Assembly (NCBI GenBank): GCA_014529675.2
Contig: CP076040.1
Span: 3,305,894-3,369,893, forward strand
Direction of reading: 5' to 3'
Length of the DNA: 64,000 nucleotides
DNA from: Opitutia bacterium ISCC 52
Lineage (GTDB): Bacteria > Verrucomicrobiota > Verrucomicrobiia > Opitutales > UBA2995
Shown here piece after piece: positions 8,420 through 32,108 of this stretch. Positions within the stretch are counted from its first letter, which is position 1. Each line of letters opens with the position of its first letter. The notes below the pieces were generated by a model. The model saw only the letters and a program-made list of their open reading frames with translations, made no database searches and was not told the DNA's origin. A program made the translations under genes and the position numbers.

Positions 8420-8506
8420 TCTGTGGATGTAGCAGGATCTGGCGCCCAATCCACTGACACTTTTCGACAGTAAAGAATCGAATTGCACACGCGCCAGGCG
8501 AAAATA

Positions 8507-8560
8507 GTATCGGTTATTGTCCAAAACGCAGTATACGGGACTCCTTAGGAATCGTATAAT
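8507..8560 (+). promoter_or_regulatory. Shared promoter element, copy A
   Basis: GTATC at 8507-8511, TTGTCC at 8517-8522, GTATAC at 8531-8536 and TATAAT at 8555-8560. The same motifs with identical internal spacing occur at 22007-22060 and 28730-28783. TATAAT has the form of a bacterial -10 box, and GTATAC sits where the -35 box would be, which fits an activator-dependent promoter. It lies 28 bp upstream of the sulfatase ATG at 8588. Confidence 0.7.
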
Positions 8561-8587: not shown

Positions 8588-10063
8588 ATGAAACACTCTT
8601 TGTTAATTCTTCTCTTCTTTTCGTCCCACTTCATCTTCGCAATAGCTGCAAACGCGGCGACTAAACCCAACATCATTCTCATCTTCACCGACGATCAGGG
8701 GTACAATGATCTGGGCTGCTTCGGCTCGCAAAAGATCAAGACGCCTCACTTGGATCGCATGGCAGAGGAAGGACTCATGCTCACCAGTTTTTACGCTCAG
8801 CCAGTCTGTGGAGTATCTCGCGGAGCGCTCATGACCGGATCCTACCCGATTCGCATTGCTGAACCGAATAATGTGAAGCTGCTCCACACGGTCCCCCATC
8901 CCAAGGAAGTTACCATGGCCGAGACGCTTAGAGAAGCGGGTTACGCGACTGCGCTAATCGGCAAATGGCATTTGGCCGGAAATCCGAAAGGCCCTGACAA
9001 TTCTTTTCAGACAGAGCTGATGCCCAACGCCCAAGGTTTCGATTACTTTTACGGCACGCCTCGTTTTAATGGGTTTACCACTTACGTTGAAGACACGCCT
9101 ATGCGCAGCAGAATAATGCGCAATGAGGAGGTGGTTGTGGAAGCCGTGGAAAGCTGGGACCATATCACCCAGGACTATACACGCGAATCACTGCAGTGGA
9201 TTGAGCAACACAAGGATCAGCCCTTCTTTCTCTATCTGGCTCACAATCTGCCACATGTTCCAGTTGGGGCTTCCGAAGGATTTAAAGGCAAATCTGAATA
9301 TGGACCTTACGGTGATACGATAGAAGAGATTGACTGGTCCAGTGGTCAAATACTGGCCAAGCTAAAAGAACTGGGAATCGACGAGAATACACTGGTGATA
9401 TTCACTTCCGACAACGGCCCCTGGATTGAACCTACTCATGCTCCTCGTGGAGCAGCGGCAGATGGAAAACCCTTTATTCCCTTAGACCATTCAGGAAGTG
9501 CCCTGCCCTTGCGCGGATGGAAAATGAGTGCCTGGGACGGTAGCTCACGCGTGCCCTTCATTGCCCGCTGGCCCGGTAAAATAGCGTCAGGGGGAAAGTC
9601 CGACCAACTACTCTCAACCATGGATCTTTTCCCCACCTTCGCCACATTGGCGAAAGCCAAACTCCCCAAATGGGAGATCGATGGACGGGATGCCACTAAC
9701 TTCCTCTTGGGACAAACGGATACCAGCCCCCGTGACGATTACTTTTATTATTCAGGCTGTTTGTTAACCGGAGTTCGTTCCGGAAAATGGAAACTGGTTT
9801 TACCACGTTCCGGAAATCCTGATGGCACCGGTTGGTGGGGTCGTTTGATTGAGGAAATTCCGGAAGTGCAATTATTCAACCTGGATCTCGATCCATCAGA
9901 AGCCTGGAACCTAGCAGCAGCACATCCCGATGTAGTTAAGTCTTTGATGAAGCGGATCGATTGGGCACGGGAAGAACTCGGAGATATTGATCAAAGCGGA
10001 TCAGGTGCCCGTTTCTTTGATAAAGGAGAGCGAAAGCTACAAGTGCCTCTCGCATCCAATTAG
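8588..10063 (+). CDS. Sulfatase-family protein with altered active-site motif (CGVSR)
   Basis: A 491-residue secreted sulfatase homologue; residues 1-23 (ending IAANA) form a signal peptide. The fold motifs are present: FTDDQGYND (33-41), GKWHLAG near 125, TSDNGPW near 279. The formylglycine motif reads VCGVSRGALMTG, with Cys74 followed by Gly-Val-Ser-Arg, so the conserved proline of CxPxR is replaced by Val76. That proline is part of the recognition signal for formylglycine-generating enzymes, so maturation may be poor or absent. It resembles the second domain of the double sulfatase at 22083 (SGSALPLRG, GDID near the end, GARFFD). It carries promoter element A, and the next sulfatase follows within 4 bp. 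Confidence 0.9.
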   Translation: MKHSLLILLFFSSHFIFAIAANAATKPNIILIFTDDQGYNDLGCFGSQKIKTPHLDRMAEEGLMLTSFYAQPVCGVSRGALMTGSYPIRIAEPNNVKLLHTVPHPKEVTMAETLREAGYATALIGKWHLAGNPKGPDNSFQTELMPNAQGFDYFYGTPRFNGFTTYVEDTPMRSRIMRNEEVVVEAVESWDHITQDYTRESLQWIEQHKDQPFFLYLAHNLPHVPVGASEGFKGKSEYGPYGDTIEEIDWSSGQILAKLKELGIDENTLVIFTSDNGPWIEPTHAPRGAAADGKPFIPLDHSGSALPLRGWKMSAWDGSSRVPFIARWPGKIASGGKSDQLLSTMDLFPTFATLAKAKLPKWEIDGRDATNFLLGQTDTSPRDDYFYYSGCLLTGVRSGKWKLVLPRSGNPDGTGWWGRLIEEIPEVQLFNLDLDPSEAWNLAAAHPDVVKSLMKRIDWAREELGDIDQSGSGARFFDKGERKLQVPLASN

Positions 10064-15227: not shown

Positions 15228-16016
15228 ATGGAACAATTAACACTCGGCCAATACAACTTGGTCGCTAATTTCTTCTCATTCACCATTGCTGCAATGGGTG
15301 CTGCCACACTTTTCTTGTGGCTAAATCGCTCTCAGGTCGCACCACACTACCGTGCGGCGATCACCATCAGTGGTTTAGTAACTGCAATCGCTCTGTACCA
15401 CTATGTAAGAATTTACGCGAGTTGGGATGCCGCTTACTCCACGAAAGACGGTATCCTGGTAGCTACTGGGTATGCATTCAACGACGCATACCGCTATGTG
15501 GATTGGTTGCTAACGGTTCCTCTGTTGCTTGTCGAGCTGATCTTGGTCATGAGATTAGCAAAGGCCCAGGCTATCTCAAAAAGTTGGCGCCTTGGAGCGT
15601 TGGCCGCCATCATGGTCATATTGGGATATCCCGGCGAAATCGCAGCAGAGTCGGGTACTCGCTGGTTGTGGTGGATCCTAGCGATGGTTCCTTTTGTGTG
15701 GATCGTATTCGAGCTCTTCGTGGGTCTTAAAGATTCTATCGCAAATCAACCTGAAAGAGTAAGGCCGCTCGTTAATCGGGCCCGTTGGTTGACAGTCCTT
15801 TCCTGGTCCTTCTACCCGATTGTGTTTGTATTCCCGATGATCGGATTCACGGGCGGAGGCGCTGCCACTGCTGTGCAAGTGGGATACACCATCGCTGATG
15901 TGGTATCGAAAGCAGTGTTTGGAATCCTGATATATCAGATTGCTGTAGCAAAATCTACCGCTGAAGCAGAGGCGACTGACAAAGTAAATCTGCCCGAAGG
16001 AGCTGTAACAACTTAG
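15228..16016 (+). CDS. Proton-pumping microbial rhodopsin
   Basis: A 262-residue seven-helix retinal protein of the inner membrane. Helix C contains RYVDWLLTVPLLLVE: Asp92 (primary proton acceptor, Asp97 of proteorhodopsin), Thr96 and Glu103 (cytoplasmic proton donor, Glu108), the DTE pattern of outward H+ pumps. Lys228 in ADVVSKAVFG is the Schiff-base lysine and Asp224 the second counter-ion. His58 matches the proteorhodopsin helix-B histidine. Leu100 at the colour-tuning position predicts green absorption. Trp149 occupies the site that is Gly in xanthorhodopsin, arguing against a carotenoid antenna of that type. It is followed by a terminator, then the carotenoid/retinal genes that supply its chromophore. 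Confidence 0.95.
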   Translation: MEQLTLGQYNLVANFFSFTIAAMGAATLFLWLNRSQVAPHYRAAITISGLVTAIALYHYVRIYASWDAAYSTKDGILVATGYAFNDAYRYVDWLLTVPLLLVELILVMRLAKAQAISKSWRLGALAAIMVILGYPGEIAAESGTRWLWWILAMVPFVWIVFELFVGLKDSIANQPERVRPLVNRARWLTVLSWSFYPIVFVFPMIGFTGGGAATAVQVGYTIADVVSKAVFGILIYQIAVAKSTAEAEATDKVNLPEGAVTT

Positions 16017-16024
16017 GGAGCTGT

Positions 16025-16065
16025 GCCCTGGACTAGGATTACCTGGTCCAGGGCGACCCTTTTTT
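16025..16065 (+). terminator. Intrinsic terminator/attenuator between rhodopsin and crtE
   Basis: GCCCTGGAC (16025-16033) pairs perfectly with GTCCAGGGC (16046-16054), and four more inner pairs (one G-U) leave an ATTA loop. A six-T run follows at 16060-16065. The T-run ends four bases before the crtE ATG at 16070, so the hairpin also occupies the place of a ribosome-binding site. Confidence 0.85.
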
Positions 16066-16069
16066 CACA

Positions 16070-16963
16070 ATGACTACTCTCAACGAAGCTCGACCCTCGG
16101 TTAACTCCGGAAAGATTCTCACAAGCGATCAAATCGACGTCGCTATGTTGGCCAGATGCCGCAGTAGCTTGCCCGGAAACGATCCGCTGCTAATCGCGTT
16201 CAGTCACCACGTAAGAGCTGGTGGCGGTAGAACCCGCGCACGCCTAGCCTACCAAGCTAGCCTGTTATTGAACCTAACCGAAGAAGATGCACTCGAGCTA
16301 GCGACCGCAGTGGAGTTGGTGCACAATGCGTCTTTGGTCCAAGATGATTTTCAGGACCGCTCTGAAAACCGCCGGGGGCGATCTTCCGTGTGGTATACTT
16401 ACGGAATGGATACGGCGGTTTGTTTGACCGATCTGTTGCTGTCTTCCAGCTTCGCATCACTTTCTACAATTAGTCATACTTCCGTAGTTCCGCAATTGAT
16501 TAGCCACTTGCATCGCGCGGTCACCCAAACACTCAGAGGTCAACTTAATGATGTCTCTAGGGATGAGAACAGCACTATTGAGAATTACCTATCAATTGCC
16601 GAGCGCAAGTCAGGCCCCTTTTTCGCTCTCGCACTCGAACTTCCGTTGATCGTTGCCGGTCATCAAGGAAACGTCGTCGACGCCAGTCGTGCGGCTTCCC
16701 ACTTTGCTCTAGGCTACCAGATCATCGACGATATAGCAGACAAGGAGACTGACCGCTATTGTGAAGCAGGAGTTAACGCCTTTTTGATATTAGAACAGAA
16801 GCTAGGAGAAGAATTGGCACTCAGCAAAACTCTCGATCTTGCCCAAGAACAATTGGAGATTTCTCGAAGTTTTGTCGCCGAATTACCCAATGGTTTTCTG
16901 AGTTTGATCGAAGCACTCATAAAACCGCTTGAGGAAACTATAATCAATTACCGCCATGCCTAA
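16070..16963 (+). CDS. crtE: Geranylgeranyl diphosphate synthase
   Basis: A 297-residue polyprenyl synthase that condenses isoprenoid diphosphates to geranylgeranyl diphosphate, the precursor of phytoene. It has the first Asp-rich motif DDFQD at 92-96, followed by NRRGRSSVW, and the second, IIDDIADKETD, near residue 220. The assignment to C20 synthesis rests on its place in the carotenoid operon. The start ATG lies immediately after the terminator T-run; an alternative ATG at codon 26 would remove a poorly conserved N-terminus. It overlaps crtI by 8 bp, indicating translational coupling. Confidence 0.9.
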   Translation: MTTLNEARPSVNSGKILTSDQIDVAMLARCRSSLPGNDPLLIAFSHHVRAGGGRTRARLAYQASLLLNLTEEDALELATAVELVHNASLVQDDFQDRSENRRGRSSVWYTYGMDTAVCLTDLLLSSSFASLSTISHTSVVPQLISHLHRAVTQTLRGQLNDVSRDENSTIENYLSIAERKSGPFFALALELPLIVAGHQGNVVDASRAASHFALGYQIIDDIADKETDRYCEAGVNAFLILEQKLGEELALSKTLDLAQEQLEISRSFVAELPNGFLSLIEALIKPLEETIINYRHA

Positions 16964-18455
16964 GGCCATCGTAATGGGCGGGGGTTTCGGAGGTATCGCA
17001 GCCAGCTTGCGACTTCGCGCTAAGGGTTACGACACCACCATCATTGATCGTTGCTCCAGACTGGGAGGCCGGGCACAGGTGTTCGAGAAAGACGGGTTTC
17101 GGCATGATGCCGGACCGACCGTTATTACGGCTCCGTTCATGTTTGATGAGCTATTTTCTCTTTTTGGACGCAATCGGGCGGATTACATTCAGTTTGCACC
17201 GGTGGAGCCTTGGTATCGATTCCAATTTGCAGATGGCGAAACGTTTGACTACGGCGGCACCACCGAGGATACGTGTCGAGAAATTGCCCGCCTGAGCCCT
17301 GGAGATGACGAGGGTTATCGGAAATTGCTCAGTAAATCACGGGACATTTTTGAGGTTGGCTTTAAACAGTTATCAGATCAGCCGTTTGACTCCTTTTCTA
17401 CTATGCTGGCGCAAGTGCCAAACTTAGTAAAACTGGGATGTTATAAAACCGTATGGCAAATGGTGCGGATCCATTTAAAAGACGAAAGACTGCAGCGCGC
17501 CTTTTCAATCCAACCTTTGTTAGTAGGCGGCAACCCTCTCGACACCACTTGTATTTACAGCCTCATTCACTACTTAGAGCGCGAATGGGGTATCCATTTT
17601 GCGATGGGTGGGACTGGTGCTTTAGTAAGTGCCTTGGAACGTTTAATGCGAGAAGTAGGCATCCGGATCCGAACAGGGACCACTGTAGATCGTGTCCTGG
17701 TAGAAAATGGAGCTGCCTGCGGAATAGCACTCGAATCGGGCGAAACTGTAAAAGCCGACATCGTCATTTCTAACGTCGATCCAATGCATCTGTATTCTCG
17801 ATTGCTAGACTCCTCACATCAAAGTCGCTGGGCTCAAATGAAGCGGAAACGCGCAAAACTTTCTATGGGTCTTTTTGTGCTCTTTTTTGGCACACGGAAA
17901 CAATACCCAGATGTCGCACACCACACCATATGGATGGGTGATCGGTTCGAAGGCTTGTTGAAAGATATCTTTAAAGCTACTCACCTCCCCGATGACTTTT
18001 CACTTTACTTGCATCGCCCGACAGCAACCGATCCGAGTTTCGCTCCTAGCGGATGCGATTCATTTTATGTCCTGGCGCCGGTCCCGAACTTGAAGGCAAA
18101 CATCGACTGGAAAACCGAAGGGCCACGCTTACAAAAACGGATTGTTGATGCCCTAGACAAAACCCTGCTACCTGATCTCAAAAAAAACATCACCTCAGAT
18201 TTCTTCATGACCCCGAAGGACTTTGCTCACGACTACCTAAGCGCAGAGGGAGCCGGTTTTTCCGTCGCGCCCGTATTTAGCCAGTCCGCGTGGTTCCGCT
18301 TTCATAACAAGGCAGAAGGTCCCGACAATTTATACTTGGTCGGCGCCGGAACTCATCCCGGAGCAGGACTGCCCGGAGTACTATCATCCGCCAAAGTTAT
18401 GGATAAACTGGTTCCAGCGGCAGAAGTAACTCACGCAGAAAAAGGCGCCGCATGA
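16956..18455 (+). CDS. crtI: Phytoene desaturase
   Basis: A 499-residue FAD-dependent CrtI-type desaturase converting phytoene to lycopene. The N-terminal dinucleotide-binding motif is IVMGGGFGGIAASLRLRAKG, followed by LGGRAQVFEKDGFRHDAGPT, which is typical of CrtI. The C-terminal FAD-binding motif is GAGTHPGAGLPGVLSSAK. Length and motifs match the bacterial four-step enzyme. It starts inside the 3' end of crtE and ends in an ATGA overlap with crtB. Confidence 0.94.
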   Translation: MPKAIVMGGGFGGIAASLRLRAKGYDTTIIDRCSRLGGRAQVFEKDGFRHDAGPTVITAPFMFDELFSLFGRNRADYIQFAPVEPWYRFQFADGETFDYGGTTEDTCREIARLSPGDDEGYRKLLSKSRDIFEVGFKQLSDQPFDSFSTMLAQVPNLVKLGCYKTVWQMVRIHLKDERLQRAFSIQPLLVGGNPLDTTCIYSLIHYLEREWGIHFAMGGTGALVSALERLMREVGIRIRTGTTVDRVLVENGAACGIALESGETVKADIVISNVDPMHLYSRLLDSSHQSRWAQMKRKRAKLSMGLFVLFFGTRKQYPDVAHHTIWMGDRFEGLLKDIFKATHLPDDFSLYLHRPTATDPSFAPSGCDSFYVLAPVPNLKANIDWKTEGPRLQKRIVDALDKTLLPDLKKNITSDFFMTPKDFAHDYLSAEGAGFSVAPVFSQSAWFRFHNKAEGPDNLYLVGAGTHPGAGLPGVLSSAKVMDKLVPAAEVTHAEKGAA

Positions 18456-19399
18456 AACACGATACCTCGCAGTCGGATCCATTTCTATCGGGCGGAGCTA
18501 ACGACGATGCTATTGAGGTGCTATCGCGGCATGGTAAGACATTTCGCTTTGCAGGCATCTTCTTGGAAAAAAAGCAGCTGAAGAATAGCGCCCGGCTCTA
18601 CCGTTTTTGCCGTTTTGCTGATGATTTAGCGGATCACACCAGTCCGAGCCTGGCTGGGCCGAGGCTACGCCAAATCAAGACGGATCTCGAGATCGGAGCC
18701 AGCGAGATTCCCATGGTTCAGGATTTTTTAAACCTGACCACGGAGGAAAACATCGATCGGGGAGCCGCCATCGACCTGATCAATGGCCTGCAGATGGATC
18801 TCGGAATGGTTAGCATAGAAACAGATGAGGATTTGATCCAATATTGCTACCATGTTGCGGGAACCGTTGGCTTACTCATGTGCGGGGTACTGGGCGTCAC
18901 CCACTCGAAGGCCTACCAATTTGCGATCTATCTGGGCATCGCCATGCAGCTCACTAATATTGCCAGAGATATTGAAGAGGATGCGATTTCAAATCGTATT
19001 TACGTTCCCAACACCTGGGTAAACCACCACCACGTAGAAGAGTTTCTGGCAGGAGTAAATGAGGCAGCCGTTGAAACCGGATTTGCGATCAAAAAAATGT
19101 TAGACCTCGCTGACCGCTACTACCAGTCAGGAATATCCGGCCTCGGTTATCTACCAAGAAGAGCTAGATTTCCCATACTAGTAGCCGCCCGTCTTTATCA
19201 AGCCATAGGAACGGAGATCCGCAAACTGGGCTATGCTCATAATAAGGGTCGCTGTTATGTAGGAAAAAGCCGTAAAGTGTTTCTCACACTGAAATCACTG
19301 CAAGAATTTATCGCCAACGGCACCTTCGAAACCTTACCAAAGCAACATACCTCGGAGTTGCACCATCCCCTCAAAGACTATCCCTTGGCCTACAGCTGA
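18452..19399 (+). CDS. crtB: Phytoene synthase
   Basis: A 315-residue squalene/phytoene synthase family enzyme joining two geranylgeranyl diphosphates head to head. Asp-rich motifs are RFADDLAD (Asp57, Asp58, Asp61) and NIARDIEEDA near residue 170; YCYHVAGTVG is also characteristic. The ATGA overlap with crtI at 18452-18455 shows it belongs to the same operon. It is followed after 11 bp by crtY. Confidence 0.94.
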   Translation: MKHDTSQSDPFLSGGANDDAIEVLSRHGKTFRFAGIFLEKKQLKNSARLYRFCRFADDLADHTSPSLAGPRLRQIKTDLEIGASEIPMVQDFLNLTTEENIDRGAAIDLINGLQMDLGMVSIETDEDLIQYCYHVAGTVGLLMCGVLGVTHSKAYQFAIYLGIAMQLTNIARDIEEDAISNRIYVPNTWVNHHHVEEFLAGVNEAAVETGFAIKKMLDLADRYYQSGISGLGYLPRRARFPILVAARLYQAIGTEIRKLGYAHNKGRCYVGKSRKVFLTLKSLQEFIANGTFETLPKQHTSELHHPLKDYPLAYS

Positions 19400-19410
19400 A
19401 ATTGGATCTG

Positions 19411-20604
19411 ATGGACCACTGCGACTTAATCATCCTCGGTGGCGGTTGCGCCGGATTGTCCCTCGGCTATGAGTTAGCACAGGCCGAAACGAGGGGCCAA
19501 CACATCCCACGTACGATCATTGTAGAACCAAGAACAATTTATCATCATGATCGCACTTGGTGCTTTTGGTCGGACAATACCGAACGGTGGACAGATGTGA
19601 TTGCGAAATCGTGGTCCCGGTGGTCCTTCTCCGATGACAGTGAAACCTTCACACAGCAAAGCGACACCTGGTCCTACGTTTCGATACCAGCAGACCGATT
19701 TTATCTCAGTCGTTTGAGCATCATTGAATCGTCTCCTAGGATTGAACTCCGAAAAGGACTGAGTTCTCAGAGCATAAACAAGGATAGCTACGGACGCTTT
19801 ACTATAAGCACCGGAGAGGAGCAGATTTCCTGCGGCATGATTGTCGATACACGGCCACCTGCCGACCTTCAGGTGAGACAAAGCTATCTCTTCCAGGATT
19901 TCGCCGGTGTTGAAATAGAGCTGGAAAGCCCAGGATTTGACAGCCAAACAGCTAGTCTTATGGACGCCATGCAAGTCGATGAATGGGGTTTTCGCTTTGA
20001 TTACATCCTCCCACGGAGCGCCTCGCGCGCCCTTATCGAAGCCACTCGTTTTTCAAAACATCCAGTTGCTAAGAAACGATTAGCCGAAGACCTGGCAGAC
20101 AGTGTCAAACGCGCGACCAAAGGCATGCCCCATCAAGTCATCCGAGAGGAGTCTGGCTCGATTCCCATGGGTCTACCCTACGAAAGCACTTTCATAGAAC
20201 CGAATTGGGTTCGAGCAGGCACGGGCGGGAATGCCGTGCGGCCTTCCAGTGGATATGCTTTTCTTCGCATACAGGATTGGGCCAAACAATGTCGGCAACA
20301 TCTGATTAATAAGGGAACCGTGATTGGACATCCCAAAGACTCCCTATTAAGCCGAAAAATGGATGAGCTATTCTTAGGCGTACTTAGAAAACACCCAACT
20401 GATTCGGTCTCACTGTTTTCCTCACTCGCTTCGCAATTACCTCCCGATCGCTTTGCACGCTTCATGACAGGTACTCCACTGCTTGGGGATTATCTCGCTG
20501 TCATCAGATCGCTTCCTGCCAAACCCTTTATCGAAGAACTCATTCACAACACTCCTTTCAAAAGGAACAACCTCGAAACAACAACACAAGCCCTACAACC
20601 ATGA
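19411..20604 (+). CDS. crtY: Lycopene beta-cyclase
   Basis: A 397-residue flavoprotein of the CrtY family that cyclises lycopene to beta-carotene. It has an N-terminal LIILGGGCAGLSLGYELA nucleotide-binding motif, the HDRTWCFWSD block characteristic of CrtY/CrtL, and GTGGNAVRPSSGYAFLRIQ in the C-terminal half. ATG at 19411 is preferred over the in-frame TTG at 19402, which adds only three residues. It shares an ATGA overlap with blh. Confidence 0.9.
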   Translation: MDHCDLIILGGGCAGLSLGYELAQAETRGQHIPRTIIVEPRTIYHHDRTWCFWSDNTERWTDVIAKSWSRWSFSDDSETFTQQSDTWSYVSIPADRFYLSRLSIIESSPRIELRKGLSSQSINKDSYGRFTISTGEEQISCGMIVDTRPPADLQVRQSYLFQDFAGVEIELESPGFDSQTASLMDAMQVDEWGFRFDYILPRSASRALIEATRFSKHPVAKKRLAEDLADSVKRATKGMPHQVIREESGSIPMGLPYESTFIEPNWVRAGTGGNAVRPSSGYAFLRIQDWAKQCRQHLINKGTVIGHPKDSLLSRKMDELFLGVLRKHPTDSVSLFSSLASQLPPDRFARFMTGTPLLGDYLAVIRSLPAKPFIEELIHNTPFKRNNLETTTQALQP

Positions 20605-21476
20605 ATCTCGTTTGGCAGAGATACCTCTTTCAAATAAGTGCAGCCGGACTCATCACTCTTTCTGTAGTTGCTGGATCAATACCAATGATTATCCAGGTTA
20701 GCGTTCTGGCCATCTTGGTAGCTTTGTTTGGAATTCCGCATGGGGCGCTGGATCCCTTGGTGGCTTATGACATGCCCAGGTGGAAAAGCAAAATCGGCAT
20801 GGTGGGCTTTCTACTGTTCTATGTAATTCTGGCTGTTCTCGTTATTCTGATTTGGCACTCATTGCCTGGAATATCCCTCCTTATTTTTTTGCTCATCTCG
20901 GGCATTCACTTTTCAGGTGATTGGCGAGGAGCTCTTCCCTTTCTCTATCGACTTCCCCTTGGATTATTGATTGTAACAGGACCCGCTCTATTTCATCGCA
21001 CCGAAGTCGAATCTCTATTTTCGATGCTTTCAACACCTGCAGCAGGAGTGGCGATCACACAATGGATGAGCTATCTCGGGGTTTTGGTGATACCTGCTTG
21101 TTTATTACCACTCCTGAAGATCAGCAGGAAAGGCTTCTGGGACATGCTGGAAATTGCTCTGCTTCTTCTTTCAGTTATCCTTCTAACACCATTGCTTTTC
21201 TTTGTTCTCTATTTTTGCGGACTCCACAGCCCCCGTCATTTTTGTAGCACCCTCAAAGAGCATCAGAAAACTTTGGCGTGGCTGGTCTGTGTATTGATTA
21301 CCGGTGTCACCTTACTCGGAGCTGTCACCTTTTATTTTTATCTTCCTTCGATCTCTCTTAGCCAGTCGCTTATTCAAATAACATTTATTGGCTTAGCTGC
21401 CCTGACCGTACCGCACATGCTTCTGATAGAATACGCATCGGCCTCCAAAGTCTCCGAAACCGCTGTGTATTCCTAG
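20601..21476 (+). CDS. blh: Beta-carotene 15,15'-dioxygenase (Brp/Blh family)
   Basis: A 291-residue integral membrane protein that cleaves beta-carotene into two retinal molecules, the rhodopsin chromophore. Family signatures are FGIPHGALDP near residue 46, SGIHFSGDW, CGLHSPRHF and TVPHMLLIE, which supply the conserved histidines for iron. Many hydrophobic helices are visible. It is the last gene of the crtE-I-B-Y-blh operon and starts within crtY by an ATGA overlap. Confidence 0.93.
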   Translation: MNLVWQRYLFQISAAGLITLSVVAGSIPMIIQVSVLAILVALFGIPHGALDPLVAYDMPRWKSKIGMVGFLLFYVILAVLVILIWHSLPGISLLIFLLISGIHFSGDWRGALPFLYRLPLGLLIVTGPALFHRTEVESLFSMLSTPAAGVAITQWMSYLGVLVIPACLLPLLKISRKGFWDMLEIALLLLSVILLTPLLFFVLYFCGLHSPRHFCSTLKEHQKTLAWLVCVLITGVTLLGAVTFYFYLPSISLSQSLIQITFIGLAALTVPHMLLIEYASASKVSETAVYS

Positions 21477-22082: not shown

Positions 22083-24857
22083 ATGAATCGAACGCCCTAC
22101 ATACTAGTTACCTTCCTGGTGTTTTCGTTTTCAATTGTTGCCCCACAGTCAGCAATTGATGCTGCAGAGAAGCCCAACATCATCCTAATCCTAACCGATG
22201 ACCTTGGTTATGGGGATTTGAGTTGTTACGGTTCTGAGTTCATCAAAACGCCACGTATCGATAAGATGGCCTCGATGGGGGTGCGAGCCAAAGAGTATCG
22301 AGTCGCAGCCAACATCTGTACGCCTTCACGCGCGGCACTACTGACTGGTTCTTATCCTCAACGCGCAGGTATTCCCAACGGGATCAGTCCGAAGCGTCCA
22401 GAACATCGGCACCTGGGCTTGCACCCGAATGAGTTTACCATCGCCGAACTTTTAAAAACTCAGGCCTATGCAACTGCCATGATTGGCAAATGGCACCTCG
22501 GGTTCGACGACGTCTTCCATCCACTCAATTATGGATTTGATAGTTACTACGGGTTACCTACCAACTACAGCCACGATAAAAGGTTCTTTGATGACAAGCA
22601 AGTGATTGAGGAGGATACGGATCTTTCGATGCTGACCTCACGCTACACTGACAAAGCGGTGGAGTTTATAACCAACAACAGCGCAAAACCGTTCTTTCTC
22701 TATCTGGCTCACAACTACCCACATGTTCCTCTGAAACCTAATCCCGCATTTGCAGGTAAGTCCAAAGCCGGTGATTATGGAGATATCATAGAGGAACTGG
22801 ACGCTAGCACCGGAAGCATTCTCGATACCTTGAATGAATTGGAGATCGCCGAGAATACCCTGATCATCTTTACCAGCGACAACGGTCCACTTCCCAGATA
22901 CGCAGATGAATTTGGTTCGGCCGGATCATTTCGTGGCAGCAAATATGTCACCTTTGAAGGTGGTCACCGCGTGCCCGCCATTTTCTATTGGCCAGATCGA
23001 CTTCCATCCGAACAGGTCTGTGAAGTGCCTATTAGTTCGATGGATGTTTTGCCAACCATTGCAGGAATTCTTGGCGCTCGATTACCGGATGATCGTATTT
23101 TGGACGGAAGAAACATTTGGCCGATTTTAACCGGTGATTCAAAAACGCCACCAAGAGAGATCGATTACTATTACAACGACAATAACCTGCAGGCTATCAG
23201 AAGGCAGGATTGGAAAATACATCTTCCTCGCACCATGGACGACCTTCCTTTCTGGCACCGCAACGGAAATAAGGAATTCCAGGAACTGGCGGAACCCTAC
23301 CTGGTTAACCTGAACAACGACATCGGTGAATCCGAAAATATCGCCAGCAAGAATACGAGCGTCGTCAATGAGTTACTCTCTGAAGCCCAAACAACCCGCC
23401 AGGAGCTCGGAAGTTCCAAATCCAGAGGAACCGCACAACGACCTATTGGAGATTCCAGGGAATTAGCAATTGCCTCACGCACAGCTTCCAAGCCACCGAA
23501 CATCATTCTCATTTTTACTGATGACCAAGGCTATCAGGACATCGGTGTTTACGGATCACCCAATATCAAAACACCTCATCTAGATCGCATGACTGAGGAA
23601 GGTATGCGCTTTACTGACTTCTATGCCCAAACCGTTTGCGGGCCTTCGCGAGCTGCATTGATGACCGGTAGTTATCCTCTTCGCATCGCAACCAAAGGAA
23701 ACCGAGTGGATGTACATCCGTATATGCACACTAAAGAAATTACGATCGCGGAAGTGCTAAAGCCTCTGGGATACAAAACGGCTGCCTTTGGAAAATGGGA
23801 TCTGGCTGGTCATACCCAGGACCCCAAACGCTATGCCCCGGAGTTGATGCCTACGCATCAAGGATTCGATTATTACTTTGGAACCTCGAGTAGCAACGAC
23901 AGCAAAGCTCATCTAATTCGTAACGAAACCGTCATTGAGATGGAAGCTGACATGAGTCAGTTGACGCGCCGCTATACGGATGAGGCCATAGGTTTTATCA
24001 AGCGAAGTAAGGATAGTCCTTTCTTCATCTACATGCCACACACCATGCCTCATATTCGTTTGGAACGTTCCGCCCAGTTTGAAGGCAAATCCAAAGGCGG
24101 CATCTACGGGGATGTAATTGAAGAGATCGACTGGAACGTCGGCCGAATCTTTGAAACCTTAAAGGAAGAAGGCCTCGATGATTCCACCTATGTGTTCTAC
24201 ATGAGTGACAACGGGCCCTGGTACCTGGGAAGCAGCAAAGGGCACCTGGATCGCATAGGCCCGGACGCAGAAGCTCATGGTGGATCTGCCCTCCCGCTTC
24301 GGGGAGCCAAGACTGCCACCTGGGAAGGTGGCTTGCGCGTGCCTTGCATTATGTGGGCACCCGGTCAGATCCCCGCCGGAACTGTTTGCTCTGAAATTGC
24401 CTCAACCATGGACATGCTACCCACCATCGCAAAACTCGCCGGCGGAGAAGCTCCCACCGACCGCGTCATCGACGGACACGATATCTCAGACTTACTACAT
24501 GGAATTCAAGGCACAAGAAGTCCCACCCAAGCATTTTATTATTACGCACGCACTCAACTCCGTGCCGTTCGCTCCGGTCCATGGAAACTGCATCTACCCT
24601 TAAAGTCCGATCAGTTCTGGGCCCGCTATAGTAAACCGGAAGACGTGATCGACTTCTCAAAGCCGCTCCTTTATAATTTAGAATCCGATCTCAGCGAAAC
24701 AATCGATGTCTCTAATCAACATCCAGCCGTAGTCAAAAAGCTACTACAACTCGTAGAAGATGCACGGAATGACATTGGCGATATTGACAAGATTGGAGCA
24801 AACGCGCGCTTCTTCGATGACGATCCGAAAAGACCGGACATAGTGGCAGGAAATTAA
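22083..24857 (+). CDS. Fused double-domain sulfatase
   Basis: A 924-residue secreted protein holding two complete sulfatase domains. A signal peptide ends near residue 27. Domain 1 (about 30-450) has LTDDLGYGD, CTPSRAALLTGS from Cys79 and GKWHLG. A linker of about 25 residues (KSRGTAQRPIGD) leads to domain 2 (about 474-910) with FTDDQGYQD, CGPSRAALMTGS from Cys519 and MSDNGPW. In domain 2 the usual GKWH reads GKWD: the conserved active-site histidine is Asp573. Domain 2 is closest to the sulfatase at 8588, domain 1 to ordinary sulfatases, so the gene may be a fusion of neighbours like those at 8588/10068. Substrate channelling is possible but unproven. It is preceded by promoter element B. 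Confidence 0.93.
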   Translation: MNRTPYILVTFLVFSFSIVAPQSAIDAAEKPNIILILTDDLGYGDLSCYGSEFIKTPRIDKMASMGVRAKEYRVAANICTPSRAALLTGSYPQRAGIPNGISPKRPEHRHLGLHPNEFTIAELLKTQAYATAMIGKWHLGFDDVFHPLNYGFDSYYGLPTNYSHDKRFFDDKQVIEEDTDLSMLTSRYTDKAVEFITNNSAKPFFLYLAHNYPHVPLKPNPAFAGKSKAGDYGDIIEELDASTGSILDTLNELEIAENTLIIFTSDNGPLPRYADEFGSAGSFRGSKYVTFEGGHRVPAIFYWPDRLPSEQVCEVPISSMDVLPTIAGILGARLPDDRILDGRNIWPILTGDSKTPPREIDYYYNDNNLQAIRRQDWKIHLPRTMDDLPFWHRNGNKEFQELAEPYLVNLNNDIGESENIASKNTSVVNELLSEAQTTRQELGSSKSRGTAQRPIGDSRELAIASRTASKPPNIILIFTDDQGYQDIGVYGSPNIKTPHLDRMTEEGMRFTDFYAQTVCGPSRAALMTGSYPLRIATKGNRVDVHPYMHTKEITIAEVLKPLGYKTAAFGKWDLAGHTQDPKRYAPELMPTHQGFDYYFGTSSSNDSKAHLIRNETVIEMEADMSQLTRRYTDEAIGFIKRSKDSPFFIYMPHTMPHIRLERSAQFEGKSKGGIYGDVIEEIDWNVGRIFETLKEEGLDDSTYVFYMSDNGPWYLGSSKGHLDRIGPDAEAHGGSALPLRGAKTATWEGGLRVPCIMWAPGQIPAGTVCSEIASTMDMLPTIAKLAGGEAPTDRVIDGHDISDLLHGIQGTRSPTQAFYYYARTQLRAVRSGPWKLHLPLKSDQFWARYSKPEDVIDFSKPLLYNLESDLSETIDVSNQHPAVVKKLLQLVEDARNDIGDIDKIGANARFFDDDPKRPDIVAGN

Positions 24858-24971: not shown

Positions 24972-26225
24972 ATGGAGAAAGATATAATCAGAGTTGGTAT
25001 CATTGGAACCGGTGGTCGCGGAATTACCTGCATCGGAAGACAGATCGCTGAACAGGCCTCTGAATTGAGCATGAACATAACGGCGTTTTCTAATCGGACG
25101 GAAAGTCGCATGCATGTCGCGCTGGAAGATGTAAATGCGGTGGCGAAGGCCGCTGGAAATGAACCCTTTGCGCCGACCTTCTATACCCAAGCCACAGATT
25201 TAATCGAAGACGATCAGGTCGACGTCATCGTCATAACGACTCCAACCAACGCCCATCTCGAAGCAGCGATTCCCGCCTTAAGAAGCGGCAAGAAAGTCTA
25301 CCTGGACAAGCCGATTGCTCACACTCTCGAAGACTCTATCGCAATCCGGCAAGCTGAACATGAGTCAGGCAACTCCATGATCATGGGCTTTACCCGAAGG
25401 TATGAAAAACCTTGGATCGATTGCAAAACCCTTGTGAAAAGTGGAGCGATTGGAGATCTGAAAATGATGCTGGTACGCGCGGTCCTACCCTATGCATTTT
25501 ATTTCCAAACCTGGCACCGATCTCGAGCAGTGAGTGGCGGTGCATTAAACGACAAAGGTTCCCACTACACGGACGTGTTTAATTGGTTTGCTGAAGGACG
25601 TGCTGTGCGAGTCAACGCCTTTGGCGGAAGAAATGTATTTCAAGAAGAAGAGGATGCTCCAGAATTTTGTTCCGAGTGCGATCGCGATTGCCCTTACCGA
25701 GCTGACCAGATTCGCCCCGATACTCAGGACCAGGTGAAGGGTGCGGTTGATGCCAGCTTCGCTCAAGAAACGGATCCAATGAAACGGAAAGACAACTGTG
25801 TCTATAAAAAAGGTGCCGATATCTACGACCATGCAGCTATCAATTATCAGTATGATAATGGGATTGTCGCATCGATTTTCTATACAATTTACGGCCCCCA
25901 AGCAGAAGATGAAGAAACCCTGGAGCTTGTAGGCACCAAAGGTCGAATCATTCTGACGCGCTTACGTGGTGAGATTGATCTTGTGACCGACTATGGCGAA
26001 AAGAAGCATGAAGTGATTTCCTGCAAAGCAGAGTATTTTGAATCATCCCACTTCGGAGCCGACCGCAAACTCGTTCAGGAAATCGCGGCCCATGCAAGAG
26101 GTGGACTCTCACCCGTCGATGGCTGGTACGGTATGGAAGCCACCCGAATGGTGGTTGGTGCTTTGAAGTCTCTCGATACAGGCGGACAAACGGTTCGCAT
26201 GGCCGACCTTGCAGACGGATCCTAA
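24972..26225 (+). CDS. Gfo/Idh/MocA family oxidoreductase
   Basis: A 417-residue NAD(P)-dependent sugar oxidoreductase-like protein. The Rossmann motif VGIIGTGGRGITCIG is at 8-22; the catalytic-lysine motif reads YLDKPIAHT (family EKP); GGALNDKGSHYTDVFNWF carries the conserved His near the active site. A Cys-rich insert, FCSECDRDCPYR, near residue 235 could bind a metal. There is no signal peptide, so it is probably cytoplasmic. It lies 114 bp after the double sulfatase and 50 bp before a DUF1080 gene, so it may process a released sugar. Confidence 0.9.
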   Translation: MEKDIIRVGIIGTGGRGITCIGRQIAEQASELSMNITAFSNRTESRMHVALEDVNAVAKAAGNEPFAPTFYTQATDLIEDDQVDVIVITTPTNAHLEAAIPALRSGKKVYLDKPIAHTLEDSIAIRQAEHESGNSMIMGFTRRYEKPWIDCKTLVKSGAIGDLKMMLVRAVLPYAFYFQTWHRSRAVSGGALNDKGSHYTDVFNWFAEGRAVRVNAFGGRNVFQEEEDAPEFCSECDRDCPYRADQIRPDTQDQVKGAVDASFAQETDPMKRKDNCVYKKGADIYDHAAINYQYDNGIVASIFYTIYGPQAEDEETLELVGTKGRIILTRLRGEIDLVTDYGEKKHEVISCKAEYFESSHFGADRKLVQEIAAHARGGLSPVDGWYGMEATRMVVGALKSLDTGGQTVRMADLADGS

Positions 26226-26275: not shown

Positions 26276-26959
26276 ATGAAAGAACATTTCCCTCTAAACG
26301 CTTGGCATATCAACAATTCAGATACGAAAGAAACCGCAGATTGGACAACAACGAAAAGTGTCCAGATAAATAAACAAGACCTCAAACGACTCCACTATTC
26401 GGCAAACAAAGGAAACATCCTCATCAATGGTCCCACCGGTAAGACTGAGCATATACTTACCAAAGAAGAATATGGAGATATTGAACTGCACCTTGAGTTC
26501 ATGATCTCAGAAGAATCGAACTCGGGCATCTATTTCATGGGTCGCTACGAAATTCAGATCAAGGATAGCTGGAAGGACGAAGAACCGGGACCTCACACAA
26601 GTGGAGCCGTCTACCCACGATGGGACACATCTCAACCTGAAGGGCAAGAAGGCTACGACGGTCACATACCACGCGTAAACGCCAGTCGAAAACCAGGCGA
26701 ATGGGAGGTCTTCAATATTACTTTTCGTGCGCCCAGATTCGACCAACAAGGAAACAAGACTCAGGATGCTGAATTTGTTAAGGTGGTGCAGAACGGAACC
26801 CTCGTTCACGAACACGCCTCCATTTCTGGACCTACACGAGGCGCAATATTTGAAGATGAAGGACCGACCGGACCACTCCTATTACAAGGGGACCATGGTC
26901 CGGTAGCTTATAAAAACATCTGGGTGACAACTACTTCCCCCACTCCTGCCACGGAGTAA
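26276..26959 (+). CDS. DUF1080 (3-keto-disaccharide hydrolase-like) protein
   Basis: A 227-residue DUF1080 domain, a concanavalin-like beta-sandwich. Family sequence includes YGDIELHLEFMISEESNSGIYFMGRYEIQI, here seen as EESNSGIYFMGRYE, then PGEWEVFNITFRAPRFD and LLLQGDHGPVAYKNIWV. No signal peptide is visible, so it could be cytoplasmic. Some relatives hydrolyse 3-keto-glycosides; its position right after a Gfo/Idh/MocA oxidoreductase fits an oxidation-then-cleavage route, which is inference. Its last 29 bp overlap the convergent broken lipoprotein gene. Confidence 0.85.
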   Translation: MKEHFPLNAWHINNSDTKETADWTTTKSVQINKQDLKRLHYSANKGNILINGPTGKTEHILTKEEYGDIELHLEFMISEESNSGIYFMGRYEIQIKDSWKDEEPGPHTSGAVYPRWDTSQPEGQEGYDGHIPRVNASRKPGEWEVFNITFRAPRFDQQGNKTQDAEFVKVVQNGTLVHEHASISGPTRGAIFEDEGPTGPLLLQGDHGPVAYKNIWVTTTSPTPATE

Positions 26960-27767: not shown

Positions 27768-28664
27768 CTAGCTCACTAACTTGGTCTGGTACTGCTTGCG
27801 AAACTCCTTGGGCGACATCCCTTTCCGCTCTTTGAACTGACGATTGAAGTTGGACAAGTTGTTAAAGCCGGAGGCGTAACAGATTTCAGACACGCTGGCC
27901 TCACTTTGCATCAGCTTTCGACACGCTAAGCCAACCCGTAATTCATTGGTGTATTGAATGAACGCTTTGCCCGTATTCTTTTTGAAAAAACGGGAGAAAG
28001 ACTTCGGACTCATTCGCGCTACCTTCGCCACGCCCTCCAAACGGATAATCTGATCGAGGTTGTGCAGGATCCAGTTTTTCACCCGATCAATAAGTTCAAC
28101 GTTTTGTTCATTTAGGGAAGGTGCATAAATCTGACTGACAAGTGGCACACGATCGGTTTCGGGTGCCGATGCCAGTGTATCCAGTATCAAGATAAACTGG
28201 GCAAACTGTTGCCCCGGGTTCTGATCGACCATCCCCAACATTAACTTTTCAACTTGGACGCGTGTCGCTCCAAGGAATTCAAATGACCGGCCCGTGGTAT
28301 CAATGAAGCTTCGAATGCGATCCATCTCGAGTTTGGCCAAGAAATCTTCTCCAAGAGACTCGGTGGAGAATTGAATCACCAACATGGCCGGTTTGTCAGG
28401 GTCACCTTCTGGAGCTTCATTGGGATGAAAGGCGTGAGGAACATTTGAGCCATTCAGGAGCAAAGTGCCCGGTTTAAGGTCTCCCATAAAGTCTCCGGTG
28501 ATGTGATAACCCGTATTCTTGAGAGTCAGCAGAATATCAATCTCAGGATGATAGTGCCAGGCTGTCCAAATATCCGTATCGGCTTTGAAGGAAAACAATT
28601 GATTCTCCTGAGAAATAATTTCTCGTTGGGCTTCACGACCTTTGACTGGCTCAATTTTGGGCAT
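27768..28664 (-). CDS. AraC-family transcriptional regulator
   Basis: A 298-residue regulator. Residues 1-170 form a cupin-like sensor (WTAWHYHPEIDILLTL, GTLLLNGSNVPHAF), and the C-terminal 100 residues hold two helix-turn-helix motifs (LEGVAKVARMSPKSFSRFFK and VSEICYASGFNNLSNFNRQF). The second ends in the conserved PKEFRKQY block. It probably binds a sugar or glycoside and activates transcription. It is divergent from the cytochrome/DUF1553 operon; the 159-bp gap holds promoter element copy C, so it is the best local candidate for the regulator of that element. Confidence 0.92.
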   Translation of the reverse strand: MPKIEPVKGREAQREIISQENQLFSFKADTDIWTAWHYHPEIDILLTLKNTGYHITGDFMGDLKPGTLLLNGSNVPHAFHPNEAPEGDPDKPAMLVIQFSTESLGEDFLAKLEMDRIRSFIDTTGRSFEFLGATRVQVEKLMLGMVDQNPGQQFAQFILILDTLASAPETDRVPLVSQIYAPSLNEQNVELIDRVKNWILHNLDQIIRLEGVAKVARMSPKSFSRFFKKNTGKAFIQYTNELRVGLACRKLMQSEASVSEICYASGFNNLSNFNRQFKERKGMSPKEFRKQYQTKLVS

Positions 28665-28689
28665 TCTCGTTACTTCTGATGCTATTAGA

Positions 28690-28743
28690 ACAATTTATAG
28701 AACGATTGTTAGCAATTGTTGTAGAAATTGTATCAGGAATTGT
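28690..28743 (+). promoter_or_regulatory. Iterated ATTGT boxes in the divergent AraC promoter region
   Basis: ATTGT occurs at 28705-28709, 28715-28719, 28727-28731 and 28739-28743, spaced 10, 12 and 12 bp, with the inverse ACAAT at 28690-28694. The last two boxes overlap promoter element C. Spacing near one helical turn suggests a protein docking array. Confidence 0.5.
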
Positions 28744-28783
28744 CCATAAAGCAGTATACGAAAATCAGATAATCAAGTATACC
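28730..28783 (+). promoter_or_regulatory. Shared promoter element, copy C
   Basis: GTATC at 28730-28734, TTGTCC at 28740-28745, GTATAC at 28754-28759 and TATACC at 28778-28783, with the same offsets as copies A and B. It lies in the divergent gap between the AraC regulator and the cytochrome/DUF1553 gene that it would drive (ATG at 28824). Confidence 0.68.
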
Positions 28784-28823
28784 TATAGACTGAGACCCAG
28801 GTCTCAAACTCGCTACCCCGGGA

Positions 28824-31800
28824 ATGGAAGGAATTTTTAAGAAAATCACGCTATCAATCGTCCTTACGCAGGCCGGCCTATCGCTGTATGGCGAAGAACT
28901 GGAACCAGCTGATCTGGAGTATTTCGAAGCGAAGGTTCGCCCACTCCTGGTCGAACATTGCTACAAATGCCACGCATCGGACTCTGAAAGAATTCGAGGC
29001 GGATTTCTGCTCGATTCAAAACCAGCAATGCTGCGAGGAGGTGATAGTGGGTCAGCCATAACCCCTGGAGATGCTGAAAACAGCCGCTTGGTAAACATGA
29101 TTCGCCAGTTGCCTGAATTTGAGTCCATGCCACCGAAATATAAAATGGCAGCCAACGAGATCGAAACACTCGTCACATGGATCAATCAAGGAGCGCCAGA
29201 TCCTAGAACAGAAGAAATTCAAACTGATGCGCTGGCTTCTGAATTCAATCTGGAGGAACGAAAGCAATGGTGGTCCCTTCAACCCGTCGAAAATCACCAG
29301 CCACCCAAAACAGAAGATGGCGACTGGCCCTCCAATGAGATCGATCAATTTATCCTGGCAAAGCTGGAAGAGCGAGACTGGCAACCCGCCGAAGCCGCCG
29401 ATAGGCGCACCCTGCTCCGCCGCCTAAGCTTTGACTTGATCGGACTGGCTCCAACTCCAGAGGAGCTCGATGAATTTGTAAATGACCGGTCGAAGAATGC
29501 TTATCAGAAACAGGTCGATCGCCTATTAGCTTCTCCCCACTTTGGAGAGAAATGGGCGCGGCACTGGATGGATCTCACACGCTATGCGGAGAGCAAATCC
29601 TTTGAACAGGATTACACCATGGCCTTCACTTGGCGTTACAGGGACTACTTGATTCAAGCTCTCAACGAAGATCTACCTTACGATCAATTTGTCCTGGAAT
29701 CACTTGCGGGTGACCTCCTCAAGAATCCACGGCACCATCCGGAAACAGGTGAGAACGAATCCGTCAAAGGTCCTGGGTTCATTTATCTAACCGATGGACA
29801 ACACGGTCCGCCGGATATACACGAAGATGAAGCACGTATCTTCGACGGCATGATCGACACGGTGAGTAAGGCTTTCCTGGGAACGACGGTAGCTTGCGCT
29901 CGTTGTCACGATCATAAGTTTGATGCGGTTACCACGGCCGACTATTATTCCATGTATGGGCTACTCCGGAGTTCTCGCTTTGCTCATCACAATACCATTC
30001 CGGAAGTTCAGCAAAAAAGAACACTCAAACGCCTTCCCTCAAAACAACGGTCCCTCCGCGCAGCTGTTTTCGATGCAGCCAAAAATGATGTGGAGAATGC
30101 AGCAGCTTATCTGGAAGCAGCCAAAGGCCTTCAGACCAATCAGAAATTCACAGCCGCATTGGCGTCATTAGAATCTGAATACCCCCAAAACAAACGAAAC
30201 AAAAACGAAGAGGCCTACGAGAAAGCCAAACGAAAAGTTATAAGCTCTTTTTCGACAGCTTCTGCTGAGCTAGACCCAGATCTTCTTGCTAACTGGATTG
30301 CACTGACCAGTGACCAGGAAGAGCAAGAACGCTGGCCAGAACTATTTGGCATACACGGTCATCTGGAAAATTCTGAGGATGAAGAAACAAGCCATGTATT
30401 TACAGAGCTAAGCCAATCGTTAGAGGACTGGATGCCACAAGGATTAGGTTTTGAGCATCAGCCCTCCAAGCCAGGTAGCCTGATCGTGAGCGGAGAAGGA
30501 AGCCAAATGGTTCAAGCCATCATTGGCGACACTCTGGTAGGCGGACCCCTCACCGCTCGCGTGAGTGGAGTTTATCGCTCTCCCGACTTTATTCTAGATG
30601 GCAAACCGATTGAACTGGAAGCTAAAGGTCAACATGGCGCTGTCCGTTTAGTGGTTCGCAATTATGAGCTAACAGGACGAGGTCCTACCACTGCCAAACT
30701 TTACCAGGCAGTAGAAGGCAATCATTGGCAGAAAATTAAAATGGAGACCTATCTTTGGGAAGGTCAGCCAGCTTACTTCGAGGTATTACAATACGGAGCG
30801 GCTACTCACTCGGTCAAACCGAAGGAGTCCGAACCCACCCCGAATGATAATGCCTACATCACAGTCAGATTCGATGGAGGACCCGATTGGAAATCTTTTT
30901 GGAATGACCAGGAGAAAGTTGCAGCTGCTCTACAAACACTTTGGGAAAAAGGTCGACGCAATCGATTAAATGCAACAGAAGCGGAACTGCTAAGCGCATT
31001 TTTTGGAGCGGGCCTCATATCGGCTGATTCCTCAAAACATGAAAAGCTCGACCGAGCTCTCACCACCTATCGATCGCTTGCCCACCAGATACCGGCCCCG
31101 CGATTCGTCCGGAGTTTAACCGATGGTGATCCAAAAGATGAGCCCGTTTACATTCGCGGCCTCCACACCAACGCCAGCAAGGAACCGAATCCACGTCGTT
31201 GGCTCGACGGTCTAGATGGCCCCATTCTAAAAACCAAAGGAAGCGGACGCTTGGAATGGGCGCAACATGTTGTGGATCCCGACAACCCGCTCACAAGCCG
31301 GGTACTCGTCAATCGTCTCTGGAAACACATCTTTGGAGCGGGACTCGTCTTTACCGTGAATGACTTTGGTCAAATGGGTCGCGCACCCACCCACCCAGAA
31401 CTACTCGATTACCTGGCTCAGGAACTGGTTAAAAATGATTGGTCCGTAAAATCAATCATTCGTGAGCTGGTCCTATCCAGCACTTATCAAATGTCTTCCT
31501 CCCCCAGCCAAGCATCCCTCTCGGAGGATCCTGCCAATCAGTTATTGCAACACATGTCAGTCAGGCGACTGGAGGCTGAAGCCATCCGTGACCACATCCT
31601 TGCCTCTAGTGGTGAACTGAACACCCAGATGTTTGGTCCCAGCGCTGAGGCCTATGTAGCCGACTTGCCTGACAGCAGAGCAAAACCAAATCCCGGTCCA
31701 CTGGACGGTGACGGTCGTCGTTCTGTCTACCTGGAGTTGCGACGCAGCTTTTTACCGACTTTTCTCCGTGCGTTCGATATGCCCAACGCGACCGAATCGA

Positions 31801-32108
31801 CAGGTGCCCGACAAGTTACCAACGTCCCCGCTCAATCACTGGCCCTGATGAATGCCCCCTTTGTGCATGAGCAAGCGGAAGCCTGGGCCAAACGGATTAC
31901 CACTTCCGATCTTTCAATCGACGACCGCATCCAACAACTCCATATCACCGCCTTCAGTCGACCAGCCACAGAAAAGGAGATTACTTGGGCAAACCAGGTG
32001 CTTCAATCCATAGCTGGAGATTACAAAACGGACCCGAACGATCTACGCGTTTGGACAGACCTCTGTCACTTGATGTTCAACCGAAAAGACTTTATCTATT
32101 TGTTCTGA
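28824..32108 (+). CDS. Planctomycete-type cytochrome c / DUF1549 / DUF1553 protein
   Basis: A 1094-residue exported multidomain protein. Residues 1-23 are signal-like. A PSCyt1 haem domain holds CYKCH (Cys46, Cys49, His50). DUF1549 starts near 190 (RRTLLRRLSFDLIGLAPTP) and contains a second CARCH near 358. A middle region may be a carbohydrate-binding beta-sandwich. DUF1553 closes the chain (RVLVNRLWKHIFGAGLV, RELVLSSTYQMS, SVYLELRRSFLP). The biochemical role of this family is not settled; a redox or surface glycan-degradation role is proposed from context. It overlaps the next gene by one base (TGATG), the usual pairing with DUF1501. Confidence 0.93.
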   Translation: MEGIFKKITLSIVLTQAGLSLYGEELEPADLEYFEAKVRPLLVEHCYKCHASDSERIRGGFLLDSKPAMLRGGDSGSAITPGDAENSRLVNMIRQLPEFESMPPKYKMAANEIETLVTWINQGAPDPRTEEIQTDALASEFNLEERKQWWSLQPVENHQPPKTEDGDWPSNEIDQFILAKLEERDWQPAEAADRRTLLRRLSFDLIGLAPTPEELDEFVNDRSKNAYQKQVDRLLASPHFGEKWARHWMDLTRYAESKSFEQDYTMAFTWRYRDYLIQALNEDLPYDQFVLESLAGDLLKNPRHHPETGENESVKGPGFIYLTDGQHGPPDIHEDEARIFDGMIDTVSKAFLGTTVACARCHDHKFDAVTTADYYSMYGLLRSSRFAHHNTIPEVQQKRTLKRLPSKQRSLRAAVFDAAKNDVENAAAYLEAAKGLQTNQKFTAALASLESEYPQNKRNKNEEAYEKAKRKVISSFSTASAELDPDLLANWIALTSDQEEQERWPELFGIHGHLENSEDEETSHVFTELSQSLEDWMPQGLGFEHQPSKPGSLIVSGEGSQMVQAIIGDTLVGGPLTARVSGVYRSPDFILDGKPIELEAKGQHGAVRLVVRNYELTGRGPTTAKLYQAVEGNHWQKIKMETYLWEGQPAYFEVLQYGAATHSVKPKESEPTPNDNAYITVRFDGGPDWKSFWNDQEKVAAALQTLWEKGRRNRLNATEAELLSAFFGAGLISADSSKHEKLDRALTTYRSLAHQIPAPRFVRSLTDGDPKDEPVYIRGLHTNASKEPNPRRWLDGLDGPILKTKGSGRLEWAQHVVDPDNPLTSRVLVNRLWKHIFGAGLVFTVNDFGQMGRAPTHPELLDYLAQELVKNDWSVKSIIRELVLSSTYQMSSSPSQASLSEDPANQLLQHMSVRRLEAEAIRDHILASSGELNTQMFGPSAEAYVADLPDSRAKPNPGPLDGDGRRSVYLELRRSFLPTFLRAFDMPNATESTGARQVTNVPAQSLALMNAPFVHEQAEAWAKRITTSDLSIDDRIQQLHITAFSRPATEKEITWANQVLQSIAGDYKTDPNDLRVWTDLCHLMFNRKDFIYLF

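Follow-up and report, generated by a model that had tools for sequence, protein, structure and literature searches.

The gene at position 22,083 of the analyzed window (a stretch of 64,000 nucleotides of contig CP076040.1 from Opitutia bacterium ISCC 52) encodes two type I (S1) sulfatases in one chain, and the second of them, D2, carries an aspartate (Asp573) at the place of the histidine of the GKWH motif. Judged from alignments and trees, this aspartate is conserved throughout an entire lineage of these enzymes and is not a sign of decay, and D2 is probably a working enzyme rather than a dead binding domain. In what follows, genomes and loci are given by our handles (G and L numbers).

Two sulfatase domains in one uninterrupted chain

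The reading of two sulfatases in one chain, made in the initial annotation, is borne out by a single uninterrupted open frame and by two PF00884 and two Sulfatase_C stretches in the encoded protein (Pfam; 397 bits to PF00884 over the whole protein, above the curated cut-off). An NCBIfam scan of the double sulfatase gave no match above cut-off. Alignment places the active-site residues of D1 at D39/D40, C79 (CTPSR), R83, K136, H138, H214, D266/N267 and K287. D1, which had been taken for fully catalytic, thus has the complete S1 set: the C/S-x-P/A-S-R motif, the DD and DN metal ligands, the lysine and histidine of GKWH, the APH histidine and the distal lysine.

The equivalent residues of D2 are D480/D481, C519 (CGPSR), R523, K571, D573, H657, D709/N710 and K743, confirming both the intact CGPSR and the numbering of Asp573 given earlier. 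D2 has the PF00884 match, the S1 fold, the formylglycine (FGly) motif and the metal ligands D480, D481, D709 and N710, and the GKWH histidine is its only difference from the standard S1 catalytic set.

Judged by eye, D1 begins with what resembles a signal peptide and D2 lacks one, so that both domains would leave the cell as one chain. One FGE homologue was found in the source genome, a single contig of 4.8 Mb that contains at least 150 matches to sulfatases.

The search for fused homologues proposed with the initial annotation found the same fusion in a sister species of the same genus (G001; 923 aa, L096 9050-11821; 71% identity in D1, 86% in D2) and, cut at its 5' end by the end of the contig, in G002 (L099 3971-6349). 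The linker aligns across all three fusions; that of the window protein is 64% identical to each of the other two. This recurrence and the one-contig genome exclude an assembly join; given also the uninterrupted frame and the similar linkers, we found no point in favor of an assembly or frameshift artefact and regard its probability as negligible.

Table 1. Features of the fused sulfatase gene and of related genes and elements in the window.
Feature	Position	Strand	Basis
Fused double sulfatase, 924 aa (P0001)	22083..24857	+	same fusion in G001, G002
Domain D1 (aa 30-452), S1 sulfatase, CTPSR at C79, GKWH138	22170..23438	+	Pfam, residue alignment, D1 clade
Inter-domain linker (aa 443-468)	23409..23486	+	alignment with G001, G002 fusions
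Domain D2 (aa 469-924), arylsulfatase-A type S1 fold	23487..24854	+	structure model
FGly motif CGPSR of D2 (C519-R523)	23637..23651	+	alignment
GKWD of D2 (G570-D573)	23790..23801	+	alignment; position equivalence from PMC4014121
Element copy, ends 60 bp before the 22083 start codon	22000..22022	+	exact pattern match
Element copy upstream of the 8588 sulfatase	8500..8522	+	exact pattern match
Third element copy, between divergent AraC-type regulator and PSCyt/PSD1 gene	28723..28745	+	3 mismatches
AraC-family regulator (HTH_18, HTH_AraC), candidate reader of the element	27768..28664	-	Pfam
PSCyt1-PSCyt2(DUF1549)-PSD1(DUF1553) protein; third of the genes preceded by an element	28824..32108	+	Pfam
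Sister-clade sulfatase (CGVSR, GKWH)	8588..10063	+	tree; orthologue directly after fused gene in G002
Gfo/Idh/MocA oxidoreductase directly downstream of fused gene	24972..26225	+	Pfam
PF06439 (3-keto-disaccharide hydrolase) protein downstream of fused gene	26276..26959	+	Pfam

Asp573 marks a conserved sulfatase lineage

In a first set of 166 sulfatases, ten carry an aspartate at the GKWx column; all ten read CGPSR and have all other catalytic residues where their sequence covers them. A larger set, drawn from more genomes, contains 27 GKWD proteins among 219 aligned sulfatases. The aspartate is invariant in all 27, and no GKWD protein that covers the position departs from D480, D481, C519, R523, K571, H657, D709, N710 or K743. 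Further columns specific to GKWD proteins are Q516, G520, H545, Y703, A759 and D854, of which H545 is invariant in the group.

Domain-wise phylogeny unites D2 and the 8588 protein in one clade (SH-aLRT 100), in agreement with their earlier assignment to the same subfamily. Within it, 26 of the 27 GKWD proteins form a supported clade of their own, sister to the GKWH clade of the 8588 protein: they lie on one side of a branch with 100/98 support, opposite the GKWH group, and another tree recovers a GKWD clade of 27 rows. The long-branched GKWD paralogue of the source genome itself (L122) falls in the wider clade.

D1 has a dN of 0.187 between G000 and G001, against 0.087 in D2 (dS about 1.9 or saturated); by these substitution rates, D2 is the slower-evolving domain and under stronger constraint than D1. 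The structure prediction likewise proposed with the initial annotation yields a complete sulfatase fold for D2 (pLDDT 93.3, pTM 0.94), which superimposes on arylsulfatase A (1e33) with a Z-score of 45.3 and an rmsd of 1.8 Å over 402 residues. The full-length model has a pTM of 0.54, so its inter-domain geometry is unreliable. A decaying D2 is excluded by the clade-wide conservation of residues together with its slower rate relative to D1.

Most GKWD members are stand-alone enzymes. There are also other architectures: at L163 10011-12032 the GKWD domain follows an SGNH/GDSL hydrolase domain in the same chain, and further GKWD domains are fused behind an N-terminal part of ~570 aa (L164 756-3779 and 7932-10970, L166 10809-13829, L167 3001-6054, L168 5917-9027). 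A Pfam scan of these N-terminal parts in L164 and L168 gave no match worth reporting, and comparison of those of L167 and L168 with PDB sequences gave no significant match. Separately, a 1419-aa protein (L185 4358-8617) has a D1-like sulfatase match (43%) over part of its chain. A literature search for GKWH or GKWD with sulfatase, with most subscription journals outside its coverage, found no paper naming GKWD.

What the GKWH histidine contributes

In the favored S1 mechanism, the second FGly hydroxyl is deprotonated by His115 (PAS numbering) and sulfate is expelled (PMC5066984, PMC4014121). The position of Asp573 is equivalent to this His115 and to His125 of ARSA; in the phosphonate monoester hydrolase BcPMH it is occupied by Thr107 (PMC4014121), with Tyr105 where D2 has Lys571. 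The description of GKWH as the motif of nearly all sulfatases was overstated, since the position is a histidine in 81% of S1 sulfatases (PMC5066984), a trait that is common but does not define the family. In choline sulfatase, the H104A mutant still turns over, with kcat reduced ~70-fold (2.4 to 0.035 per second) and kcat/KM ~1800-fold, whereas the K102L and H201A mutants have activity at the detection limit or close to it (PMC5870055). BT1636, an active 3S-galactose sulfatase (PMC13383068), reads GKWA at this site (7an1 and 7oqd, one sequence). The frequency of the histidine, the residual turnover of H104A and the activity of BT1636 together make an aspartate at this site compatible with catalysis. 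Asp573 itself may be the catalytic base.

D1-type and GKWD genes often lie close together

The relatives of D1 form one clade (13 rows, support 100). Of the eight Verrucomicrobiota genomes recorded with both kinds, seven have a D1-clade gene no more than 20 kb from a GKWD gene, a count that omits G024 and G042, where the two genes are on short separate contigs. Under uniform placement, 20,000 draws gave a maximum of four genomes; sulfatases cluster in these genomes, so that the true significance is lower. Adjacent D1-type and GKWD genes are separated by 72 bp in L163 and by 26 bp in L171, where the D1 type comes first as in the fusion; in L170 the two genes overlap, again with the D1 type first. 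Separate orthologues of D1 (71%, G329) and of D2 (80%, G006) also occur. D1-clade and GKWD genes thus neighbor each other in unfused relatives as well, and the fusion unites a pair that is frequently found side by side, which usually points to a common function.

A single fusion inherited intact in all three species is rejected on the D2 tree: in G002, D2 falls in a different GKWD subclade, and a topology uniting the three D2s fails the AU test (p 3e-5). The D1 and linker of G002 agree with those of the other fusions. These relationships suggest that in G002 a different GKWD domain has taken the place of D2, with D1 and the linker conserved; alternatively, the contig of this 75%-complete MAG is chimeric.

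A shared upstream element and a candidate AraC regulon

A promoter element common to the 8588 and 22083 genes had been proposed, and we recover it: the pattern GAAAATAGTATCN5TTGTCC matches exactly at 8500 and 22000 and with 3 mismatches at 28723 (0.03 expected by chance). A search of the 4.8-Mb genome with its core, AAATWGTATCN5TTGTCC (16 fixed bases, one mismatch allowed), gives three sites, each of them inside the window, and the reversed control has no match in the genome; as the core was derived from these same three copies, the genome search shows rarity and not prediction. Element copies recur in G001, G004 and G005, the third being kept in G005, and in another family (G329) the element, with 3 mismatches, lies beside an AraC/PSCyt pair. 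As in an AraC regulon, the site is shared by the upstream regions of the member genes and is found beside the regulator gene. The simplest reading of these sequences is a small putative AraC-type regulon that includes the double sulfatase and its 8588 cousin.

The window (27768-35484) has an AraC regulator, the element and a series of PSCyt/PSD1, DUF1501 and PSCyt1 genes; the corresponding loci are L101 and L183, with the element and size-matched genes recurring in G005 and the whole series in the other family (G329).

Two active sites or one

The initial annotation had read the missing histidine as pointing to a binding or specificity function for D2, and our results do not support this step. 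In its full form, D2 would be a pseudoenzyme, a module that binds sulfated glycan or confers specificity in the service of an active D1. The replacement of His by Asp at 573 speaks for it, as do the fusions of GKWD domains to other putative enzymes (the SGNH/GDSL esterase domain and the orphan ~570 aa domain). However, the FGly cysteine and its arginine, the Ca ligands, Lys571, His657 and Lys743 are retained clade-wide, most members are unfused, D2 is more constrained than D1, and active S1 enzymes without this histidine exist, BT1636 with its alanine among them. We consider a pseudoenzyme unlikely. Since the GKWD clade keeps its other residues, D2 evolves more slowly than D1, its model is that of a sulfatase and BT1636 is active, two functioning active sites are likelier, and a role for D2 in binding or specificity is less well supported.

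We favor, with reasonable though not high confidence, a secreted bifunctional sulfatase with both domains active, which would remove two sulfates from one glycan under AraC-type induction. Both domains would be matured to formylglycine, D1 and D2 would take different sulfates off the same glycan, and the fusion would set a 1:1 ratio of the two steps. In D2, the histidine base for expulsion of sulfate from the FGly-sulfate intermediate would be replaced by Asp573, water or another residue, and the set would be induced by the regulator at 27768. Genes near the loci of relatives encode GH116-like, GH43-like and SGNH proteins, which do not fix a glycan. As a counterpoint to a working D2, the cost in kcat/KM of H104A in choline sulfatase means, by analogy, that the aspartate might leave D2 slow.

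The altered base also leaves room for a catalytic D2 with chemistry unlike that of D1, such as slow elimination with sulfate transfer to an acceptor, or hydrolysis of a phosphate or phosphonate ester. The variability of the position in related hydrolases (the threonine of BcPMH) and the other GKWD-specific columns fit such a change, but Lys571 is kept where BcPMH has a tyrosine and the genomic setting is one of sulfatase islands, so we hold it to be quite improbable. Slimmer still is the chance that both domains are ordinary sulfatases and that the aspartate is a mechanistically neutral, lineage-specific swap that a nearby group makes up for and that confers nothing new: the alanine of active BT1636 and the invariant H545 would agree with it, whereas the absolute conservation of the aspartate over 27 diverged members would not. 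More speculatively, and with a modest chance of being right, the whole GKWD clade may be an S1 variant in which the aspartate takes over from the histidine in resolving FGly-sulfate, the substrate or acceptor being changed as well (sulfate transfer is one option), and which serves as a recurrent partner module fused to different enzymes that act on one sulfated glycan.

Relation to known sulfatases

With the S1 (FGly, type I) sulfatases of SulfAtlas and human arylsulfatase A (1auk, 1e33), D2 shares the fold, the C-x-P-S-R motif, the Ca ligands and the active-site lysine and histidine; it differs in the aspartate at the His115/His125 position and in the presence of two domains per chain. BT1636 (S1_20), like D2, is an S1 enzyme without histidine at GKWx, but it has alanine and a single domain, and its identity to D2 is only 32%. 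The planctomycetes P1 and P2 from Porphyra also have one gene made of two unrelated, apparently once adjacent sulfatases, although by description its 3' domain is of iduronate-2-sulfatase/choline-sulfatase type and GKWD is not mentioned (PMC4807772). Freshwater Verrucomicrobia likewise have sulfatase genes beside PSCyt/PSD genes (PMC5615132), whereas in the present case three genes are linked by a specific upstream element and a candidate AraC-type regulator. S1 sulfatases, a two-sulfatase gene and sulfatase/PSCyt neighborhoods are thus already known.

Sulfatases that lack a catalytic residue are often called inactive, and the GKWD lineage, with its otherwise intact site, indicates that such calls can err. 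Its fused, adjacent and separate copies make testable both the role of the GKWH histidine in sulfate elimination and the order of desulfation by the D1/GKWD pair, and the three-gene element offers an inducible handle for finding the substrate.

The 8588 sulfatase and neighboring genes

In G002, the fused gene, the 8588 orthologue and a further sulfatase follow in succession. All six 8588 orthologues (window 8588-10063; L102, L103, L100, L099, L009) read CGVSR, with valine where the FGly motif needs proline or alanine, while cousins of the group in L172 and L177 read CGPSR. Judged by its motif, the active site of the 8588 protein may be odder than that of the fused gene. Just upstream of the fused gene, at 15228-21476, lies a gene series that by eye resembles a carotenoid pathway, with genes of the phytoene synthase type and of the lycopene cyclase type.
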